Below, piece by piece: positions 18,011 through 21,136 of a stretch of DNA of 35,997 bases (positions are counted from its first letter, which is position 1; each line of letters opens with the position of its first letter). Made by a program: the position numbers and the translations under genes. The notes below the pieces were generated by a model. The model made no database searches. It was not told where the DNA came from and saw nothing but the letters and a program-made list of their open reading frames with translations. The stretch is from Heterotrichella gracilis. Its lineage: Eukaryota > Sar > Xanthophyceae > Tribonematales > Xanthonemataceae. The stretch spans positions 1 to 35,997 of the forward strand of contig JAULBX010027561.1 in the NCBI GenBank assembly GCA_032358255.1, read 5' to 3'.

Positions 18011-19712
18011 GGAGCGGCATGGCATGTGGCAGGGGCGTGAAGATGGCTGAGCTTGCCAAGGGGAGGAAAATATGGTTCGCCAGTGAGCAGTGCTGGCCAT
18101 CAAGGCTGTGTTCAATGATGTGCGAGGGTTTTGAAGAGGATAAACCATGTGGAGATCATCTATGTCTGTGGTATTGCTTATGGGTGCTGGCAGGAAGCAT
18201 TTAACCAGTCTCTTCACATGATGCCGCATGCGGGCTGGCAAGCTGTGCCACACGTCATGCTTTGGGGGTTGATTTCACAATGTACGTCCTACAAGGACAA
18301 TCATTGGCCAGTAAATCACTTGTATACATTCTTATTGCTGGTCTATGTATGCAACGTCAGTTGTCTAGGCTTAAACTAGGAGCTTCAGTGCCTGTAGTAA
18401 TCACTATGCGACACTAAGAAAAATCCGCCATGATGCCATTCAAAGTAGGCGCCTTGTTTATGGCATTGCCTTCAAGGACATCAGGAGCATGCGTGCAGTA
18501 GGCAAGGGCATCAATGCAATGTTCAATACGCATGCCATGCAATACTATTAGACACGTCGTGCACGCGCGGTTTTCTTCTTGCACGCCGGTGCGGCAGCAG
18601 CAGCGCTGTAGTACAGCGGCTGCCCTTACATCATAATCTGATCCAAATTGGATGAACACGTGTGTAAACATTTAAATGATTGTTGCTCCACTCGACGAGG
18701 CATGTGATTGCATGCACATGCAATGTGCACATCAGATTCGAAACGATCACCAAAGCATTGGTGATCCATTCACTGGCTATATCATAATCTATCATATTCC
18801 ATTAGGGATTATGGTAAATCCAATGTGATATAATATACAGTATTACTTGATCAGTAATAAATAATTTTACGGATTGCAGTGCCTGCAAAGCCTCCCGGGT
18901 TGAACCATGAACTTGATGAACTGGCATTCAGGCTGCACTGCAGATGATCTGACATCGAGTCCAGATTCTAGTAGGTAGTACCGGCAAACTTGGCCTACAG
19001 CCTTGAATCTACAAAATATGATCCCCACCAATCAGCGCCTCAAGCCAGCGAGTGCAGCGGCTACAGCATTGTGCTCTAGCCTGGTGCGCCACAATAGCGT
19101 GGTTTGGCAACCAGGCTGTCATGTATGCTGACCCCGCTGCAGCCCTGCCTGTGCCATCCAATGTAGAAAAAAGAAACTTAACGCCAACCGGTTTAGTAGA
19201 TGCGGCGGCATAGCCAAGGACAGAAGACGAAGGGGGCAAATGAAAAAAATTGGGAACGGCAAGCACCTGCCAGGCGCTCTGCCAACCACAGGGGACTCCG
19301 AGCCCTGGCTCAATTGTGATTTCTTCCCCTTAGCTCAGCCAGCTCAGTGTGCAACGTTGCTTATATTTAGGTGTGTAGATATGGGCCAGCCCTTGCCGGG
19401 CATCCCAGGCTGCAGCATGGCAAGGCCGGGGTCCGTGCATGCATGCCAAGGCCAGGGCCATGCCAAGGCCATGGCCCTCTGATGACAGCCAGGATGCACC
19501 ACAGCCACCTGGAGCAGGTGCTCTTAGACATAGTCTGCCAACCCCTCCACAGTGGCGATTGCTCACTGCAGCACTGGAACACATGTTCTGCACAGTGCGC
19601 TGAACACGCATCCTCCATAACCATTAAGCACCTTTCACATGCCAGCCATCAAACGTGTCTCCCCACCACCACATGAGCCAATGAGCCAGCCCCGCCCCAT
19701 TACCAATCCCGC
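18011..19712. other. Convergent intergenic region
   Basis: About 1.7 kb between the 3' ends of gene D and the minus-strand DUF3253-like gene. The part from 18660 to 18860 is AT-rich, with overlapping ATGCA/TGCAT and CACATGCAATGTGCAC inverted motifs. No coding unit is supported. The minus-strand half (19200-19712) is where a 3'UTR element for the DUF3253-like mRNA would have to lie. By eye I found no convincing SECIS element there. Confidence 0.45.
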
Positions 19713-21136
19713 CTAGCCGCTCTTGAGGCGCAGCCTGATCGGCCCCTTGAAGGCGTGCGGGTCCACCACCTCCCCCTTTTGTGTTATCTCCACCTTGCCA
19801 AGGGCCACAAGCCTCCGGGCTGCTTCGCGTGTGGCGCCCATCAGGTCCCGCCAGCTGGACGGGAAAACCCTGCGGGGTGTGGGCACAGACCACTTGAGTA
19901 AGAAGGAAAGGAGAAGTTCTGGCGACGCACAAGCTGGGCTTTGCCAACATGCGCACAACCACTGCCTTCATCCTGCCATCAACATGCACTAAGAAACCCA
20001 CCTTGCACACTGGAACAAGGAGGCGGGAGGCGGGGTGAAGGATGCCGCCGCCATTGCTCAAGTGGGAACACACAAAAAAAGAGGTGCTTGCGCTGTATCA
20101 GTGCAATGACGGCAAGGACCCATTGACCATTGCGCCAGACCATGGCCCCATACCTGCTGGGCGCCTTGCTGGGTCAGCATGTTGCACCAGGCCACAGCCC
20201 CCTGCCCTCCCTTAAACCCTAAACCCTAAACCATACCTGCGGGACGCCTCACTTGCTCGGCATGTCGCGCCAGGCCATAACCCCATACCCTACCCTACAA
20301 TGAACCCTAAACCTTAAACCCTACCTGCGGGGCACCTCGCTGGGTCAGCATGTGGCACCAGGCTTGCGCTTGGACAGGATTTCTAGGATGGCGGCCTCCA
20401 ACTGGTGGTTGATGGGCCGCAGCGCCGGGCCATCACCTCCTGGAGCTTCAGTTGCGCATTTTGCCTGAAACACCCCACAAAATACAAGATTTACGAAAGA
20501 GTTCGACAACTGTGCCCCAAGATAAGGGGCTGGAGCTTGCGCCCCGCATTTCACCTGAAACACCTTGTAATTGGGCCCCAACTCAGGGCATTATATGTTG
20601 AGTTCACATAATTCATACGAACAGTTGCCCACACACTTTATTTATTAATTCTTTATTCTTTTATCCGTGCTCGTCCAGCACAAAATTGATGCAAGAGGCG
20701 GTGTGCGGTGCGGGACAGTGGTTGCTGGCACCAACGCACTTGCGCACTACAGAGCAGGTAGTGAAGCTTATTGCTGTACCATAATAATGCCGGGTAATTG
20801 CATATACAACGGGTTTACATAGTGTGACAGAAAATGGAAAATAATGTATAGAGGTCCCTGTAGTTCTCCTGTATTGCCAGCGACTACGACTATGCAAGAA
20901 GGTACCTGTTTGTGCTTCTGCGTTCCCTCAGCCCCACCACCTGCCGCCCCGCTTGTCCACCCACTGGAGGTGGAGGCATCAGCCTCGGCCCCTTCCCCTG
21001 TTTGAGATCCACGCTTTGAGCGTTGCGCCCTAGTGCCGTGGGCTTGGGTGACTGGCAGGGCTTGAGAATCGCTTGCGTCTGGGCTGGTGCCACCTAGTGT
21101 TGAACCGTCCAAATGCTTGCGTTTCGCCTGGCCCAT
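19713..21136 (-). CDS. DUF3253-like protein with in-frame TGA; candidate selenoprotein
   Basis: Three exons on the minus strand: 21136-20906, 20464-20325 and 19869-19713 (TAG), 175 residues counting the TGA as one. Phases agree (0, then 2/1). Residues 1-77 are basic then Ser/Gly/Ala-rich (MGQAKRKHLDGSTLGGTSPD). Residues about 90-175 match the bacterial and plant DUF3253 pattern: NHQLEAAILEILSKRKPGAT, C, TGA, PSEVPR, VFPSSWRDLMGATREAARRL, VEITQKGEVVDPHAFKGPIR, LRL. From memory the family has G-x-T-x-C-P-S-E-x-A-R here, so the TGA (20345-20347, residue 117) sits on the conserved cysteine. Family function is not established; the fold looks like a small winged helix. Selenocysteine is the simplest explanation of a frame open on both sides. 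A nonsense mutation is the alternative. A DUF2256 zinc-binding domain often precedes DUF3253 but was not found upstream. Confidence 0.7.
20154..20279 (-). repeat. Two partial copies of DUF3253-like exon 2 end
   Basis: In the intron after exon 2, its last about 42 nt plus donor recur at 20279-20237 and 20195-20154. The nearer copy reads PGATC, CGA (20257-20259), ASEASR. The farther reads PGATC, TGA (20174-20176), PSKAPS. Both end in a CAG/GTATG donor. CCCTAAA-type repeats separate the copies. Another echo, of the exon 2 start (acceptor TTTCAGGTGAAATGC), lies at about 20578-20520. Confidence 0.82.

Follow-up and report, generated by a model that had tools for sequence, protein, structure and literature searches.

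A conserved cysteine codon replaced by TGA, with a downstream SECIS element, in a probable DUF3253 selenoprotein gene

The question raised by this locus is whether a TGA codon within a DUF3253 gene is a stop or a selenocysteine (Sec) codon. In the window, that is, the whole stretch of 35,997 nucleotides analyzed here, we modeled a three-exon gene on the minus strand with one in-frame TGA at 20345-20347. The codon context of the TGA on that strand is GCC ACA TGC TGA CCC AGC GAG. The gene has the following parts:

20906..21136, minus strand: exon 1, with a putative start ATG at 21136 and a low-complexity N-terminus of 77 codons
20465..20905, minus strand: intron 1, GT-AG
20325..20464, minus strand: exon 2, encoding the first part of the DUF3253 domain and containing the TGA
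20345..20347, minus strand: the TGA, the codon proposed for Sec, at residue 117 of 175 in the model and at a column that holds Cys in homologues
19870..20324, minus strand: intron 2, GT-AG, phase-2, containing the exon-2 end in two diverged copies, from 20274 and 20191
19713..19869, minus strand: exon 3, encoding the second part of the DUF3253 domain and ending in TAG (PF11625, E 3.1e-15, 62.1 bits)

The splice sites and exon 1 are predictions. The frame of exon 1 is open from its inferred start up to a GT donor in the correct phase, and this exon has no support from homology. Joining exons 2 and 3 across the phase-2 intron gives ...ILEILSKRKPGATC-U-PSEVPRR-VFPSSWRDLM...GPIRLRLKSG*, a frame with no further stop besides the TGA. 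Translated with Cys at the TGA, the joined protein scores 93.7 bits against PF11625 (cut-off 22.1, E 8.1e-27). DUF3253 is its sole Pfam match, with none to PF01035. The first-pass annotation had described the frame as family-like on either side of the TGA, with a phase-correct intron following PSEVPR. Both descriptions hold, given the joined score, the match of exon 3 alone (E 3.1e-15), and the GT-AG, phase-2 intron from 20324 to 19870 that joins the two exons. Searches of the 68.5 Mb assembly with the family model and with the protein found this locus and no second one.

We then compared the TGA position with relatives of the protein. Three protein searches, the last represented by the best 120 of 1067 matches, provided 133 distinct proteins. 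In their alignment, the TGA column holds Cys in 130 of 133; one protein (P0072) has Trp, and two (P0019 and P0020) do not cover the column, as their predicted starts lie downstream of it. Late starts like these could arise from a gene caller stopping at TGA, and the Trp of P0072 is possibly a TGA that a gene caller translated as Trp. A query with the C-terminal part for truncated relatives returned P0020 only. Among 376 confirmed loci of the prokaryote collection, the best 80 all carry Cys (70 scored by script and 10 by eye), in a locus search that was biased to Cys, as one of its two patterns includes that residue; in 39 of the 80, the other pattern alone is present. The conserved Cys before the PSE motif, which the first-pass annotation had given as a feature of the family, is borne out by 130 of 133 proteins and by all 80 loci kept of the 376. 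This Cys is a feature of the homologues outside Pfam's definition of the family, and the window protein has TGA in its place.

In 29 of the 133 homologues, the residue before the TGA column is also Cys. Among these 29 are the proteins of Monoraphidium minutum (P0003) and Chlamydomonas sp. UWO 241 (P0031), both named green algae, which have CC where the window has C-TGA. The pair is not confined to eukaryotes, because P0007 (Myxococcaceae) has it as well. Monoraphidium minutum is the closest named eukaryotic relative among the matches listed. This relative, the introns, and the TTTAGGG-like repeats point to a green alga as the probable source of the gene. A Cys form in Monoraphidium would fit the exception made for M. 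neglectum among green algae with full Sec machinery, as stated in the excerpted text of PMC6627142. The Cys-form proteins, such as PDB 2NS0 (ASICPSD) and the M. minutum protein (ATCCPSE), are alike to the window protein over the whole domain and the motif, whereas the window gene has TGA for the Cys codon, plus a SECIS element. Among the relatives examined, TGA at this column could not be proven for any further species, which we count against the Sec reading. The DUF3253 domain contained no stop in eight of eight bacterial genomes, a collection of viral contigs yielded no DUF3253 relative, and no NCBIfam model matched P0003, P0006, P0002, or P0007.

The placement of the TGA exactly at the conserved Cys codon is more than chance. 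When the TGA codon is treated as TGC, 23 single-base changes in the 98 codons of exons 2 and 3 create a stop, and one of the 23 gives TGA at the Cys codon.

Decoding of TGA as Sec calls for a SECIS element, which the first-pass annotation had not found by eye. We located one on the minus strand with a scanner custom-written for the ATGA...AAA...GA architecture, and with a covariance model (described below):

19055..19142, minus strand: SECIS element with an apical mini-helix (ATGA 19122-19119, AAA 19105-19103, GA 19076-19075)
18626..18630, minus strand: TGTAA, a possible polyadenylation signal, the only TGTAA from the TAG to 17800, about 490 bases past the SECIS quartet

The SECIS element lies about 590 bases past the terminal TAG. 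The TGTAA pentanucleotide is the polyadenylation signal of green algae; none occurs between the TAG and the SECIS element here, nor in the corresponding interval of four control genes. A 104-base stretch containing the element folds at -49.6 kcal/mol into helix I, internal loop, helix II, and apical mini-helix, with a z-score of -3.03 and none of 200 shuffles equally stable. Strict scanning of both strands of the window gave one match, at 19122, under limits chosen after that match was known. The same scan gave 46 matches in 131.5 Mb of dinucleotide-shuffled minus strand (0.35 per Mb), none reaching -20.4 kcal/mol, and no matches in 178 kb of strand from other parts of the genome. With loose settings, there were 15 matches over both window strands and, at 19338, a further and weaker candidate in this region. 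The window's SECIS element was found once in the genome. Rfam reported no SECIS at the locus, either at the gathering threshold or at E up to 10; genome-wide, its SECIS_1 model found the C19 element described below, under the cut-off, and no other, so that three of four controls were missed as well.

The controls are elements of the same design downstream of four other genes of this genome: SelW (C193, CGAU), SelT (C395, CSSU), the gene for an Rdx protein (C475), and a gene on C19. SelW and SelT have an in-frame TGA, and the C19 gene has a candidate one; in the C475 Rdx gene, an in-frame TGA was not located. SelW and SelT thus share with the window gene both the in-frame TGA and a like SECIS architecture, but they belong to the Rdx family, whereas the window protein matches DUF3253 only. 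The strict scan recovers three of the four control elements and misses that of C19, and is to that extent an incomplete test. Two features of the window element count against it: its AAA is spaced one base farther from the quartet than the AAA of each control, and its distance of about 590 bases from the stop compares with 43 to 404 in the controls.

Several loci were set aside when the controls were assembled. Loose-scan matches in the control loci L023, L025, and L027 were not counted as controls. A Sep15/SelM-like gene on C39 showed no downstream element like the others when scanned with loose settings, and a GPx locus on C135 with one TGA was rejected as a Sec GPx (motif NVASQCG, by eye). 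The C19 gene (L027 2150-3075), which matched nothing in Pfam at E up to 0.1, reads ATPAEHGQ-U-AKGFLAKV across its in-frame TGA and has its SECIS element downstream; from its sequence, it is a candidate for a second selenoprotein.

To score the window element against the controls, we built three covariance models. MAFFT gave no useful alignment of the SECIS cores, and model R1 was made from the SelW element only, its sequence entered twice, with the other elements then aligned to it. Under default filters R1 matched only itself. Without filters, the other three controls came 2nd to 4th of its 25 matches in 27 kb, and the window element 12th of 20, which we count against the element. An alignment of the five elements, which was fitted to the structure, has 96.3% standard pairs, with both sides changed in 21 of 22 pairs. 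Model R2, built from the four other elements with that of the window excluded, placed 19055-19142 at the top of the window (25.3 bits, E 1.3e-5; next match, 11.9). Model R3, a leave-one-out model of three sequences with C19 omitted, gave 21.8 bits to the omitted C19 element and 18.4 bits to the window element (E 0.011; next match, 13.3). The window element therefore scores close to a real SECIS that the model had not seen. In 89 kb of background, at E up to 1, R2 had one match, of 20.5 bits, at L017 2670-2722 (C447), on the same strand as a GSHPx exon and about 1 kb downstream of it. A TGA could not be shown in this GSHPx gene, and the match may be a real SECIS or a sign that 20 bits is not exclusive.

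The genome also contains components of the Sec machinery. We found a tRNA-Sec (77.1 bits) whose anticodon, as judged by eye in the alignment, is UCA, four exon-wise matches to SepSecS, and an eEFSec domain. An SPS-like gene on C80 is split by introns, each exon scoring under the model's cut-off. On C1 and C111, selD genes without introns lie far inside long contigs, and because of these two contigs, the assembly probably contains bacterial sequence as well.

We weighed other explanations of the TGA against this evidence. In a decaying gene, translation would indeed stop at the TGA to give a truncated product, and the resemblance of the hairpin to a SECIS would be coincidental. The locus has been rearranged, as the tandem duplicates of the exon-2 end in intron 2 show, but exon 3 is intact and strongly conserved at 62.1 bits, the joined frame lacks any other stop, the stop falls exactly on the conserved Cys, and the downstream element scores like the left-out genuine one. 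We consider decay improbable.

The intron copies also bear on whether a Cys codon was turned into TGA by a sequencing or assembly error or by a polymorphism. TGA is one base from TGC, and relatives have Cys, as this explanation would expect. However, one of the two copies in intron 2 reads TGA (39 of 44 positions identical to the exon-2 end), and the second reads CGA (35 of 44). Because neither is a Cys codon, a lone miscalled base is unlikely, and an error would not bring a SECIS element with it; we give this explanation very little credence. The TGA in the copy suggests that this codon predates the duplications of the exon-2 end; alternatively, gene conversion would account for it. Diverged tandem copies of adjoining exon ends, together with TTTAGGG-like repeats, occur in introns at 20191-20362, about 20470-20560, and 1-434, and the C135 GPx locus appears to resemble this, as judged by eye.

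Removal of the TGA through alternative splicing is likewise highly unlikely. There is a GT just upstream of the TGA within the exon, but by inspection the nearest AG (CCCAG) would define an intron of only about 19 bases, and if intron copy 2 were used instead, the Cys column would hold Arg. Least probable of all, to the point of near dismissal, is a variant nuclear code that reads TGA as another amino acid: the frame would be open if TGA were a sense codon, but the genome has a tRNA-Sec with a UCA anticodon and Sec-motif genes with SECIS elements, and the SelT frame appears to be TGA-terminated, in which case TGA also serves as a stop.

From the sequence evidence, we consider it highly probable that the TGA is a Sec codon and that the protein therefore has Cys and Sec side by side. 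The original proposal of Sec in place of the conserved Cys, beside a normal Cys, is supported by the SECIS element on the right strand and by the Cys of relatives. The in-frame TGA stands where the CPSE motif has its conserved Cys, and the gene probably encodes a 175-residue DUF3253 selenoprotein. Following established eukaryotic biology, the 3'UTR SECIS would recruit SBP2 and eEFSec with Sec-tRNA, and the ribosome would put Sec at the UGA and continue to the TAG. The product would then bear the adjacent Cys-Sec of ATCUPSE, compared with Cys-Cys in the two named algal relatives.

The role of such a pair is less certain. The solved-structure relative by sequence is PDB 2NS0, whose fold we take to be a winged helix, and there is a weak profile match to RpaA (E 0.98). 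With low confidence, the Cys-Sec pair may sit at the start of a helix in a small winged-helix-like domain, where a reactive thiol/selenol, as a redox switch or an electrophile/metal site, might tune nucleic-acid binding. A redox or metal role of the pair, as the first-pass annotation envisaged, is plausible. Our best inference for the protein, at low confidence, is a winged helix that binds nucleic acids and carries a redox-reactive site.

DUF3253 looks like a new eukaryotic selenoprotein family, in a comparison made by name only with MDP, Hypo, and the Ostreococcus hypothetical proteins, and it may have been described earlier as MDP or Hypo. The term DUF3253 was not found in the open-licence PMC papers searched, and the papers listed there on selenoproteins that are algal or new, on DUF2256, alkyltransferase, and winged helix, and on Trebouxiophyceae included none of this kind. 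The sections available of PMC7539508 list 42 algal selenoprotein families, including MDP and Hypo, and report three new families from 137 algae; about half of the algal families there have a thioredoxin-like domain, whereas the window protein matches DUF3253 only. Three Ostreococcus hypothetical selenoproteins appear in the part of PMC2375036 at hand. Adjacent Cys-Sec, as in the window protein, also occurs in the bacterial CU-motif selenoproteins KCU-star and SaoL, although these belong to other families and use bacterial decoding, going by the passages seen of PMC13188914.

The MDP selenoprotein has PF01035, unlike the window protein. The two families may be linked, as P0072 (224 aa, ENA source), the homologue with Trp at the Sec column, has a PF01035 alkyltransferase-like domain fused to DUF3253. 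This fusion is a weak hint to nucleic acids. Tentatively, and with more doubt than belief, DUF3253 could be a winged-helix selenoprotein family whose vicinal Cys-Sec pair detects or repairs electrophilic or alkyl lesions in nucleic acids, with P0072, P0019, and P0020 as further Sec members. If true, these three proteins would tie selenium to DNA repair or redox-controlled regulation in other lineages. New eukaryotic selenoprotein families are rare. Since exchange between Sec and Cys identifies a residue as catalytic or reactive, the codon points to the functional site of DUF3253, and the functional site of a widespread family becomes directly testable.
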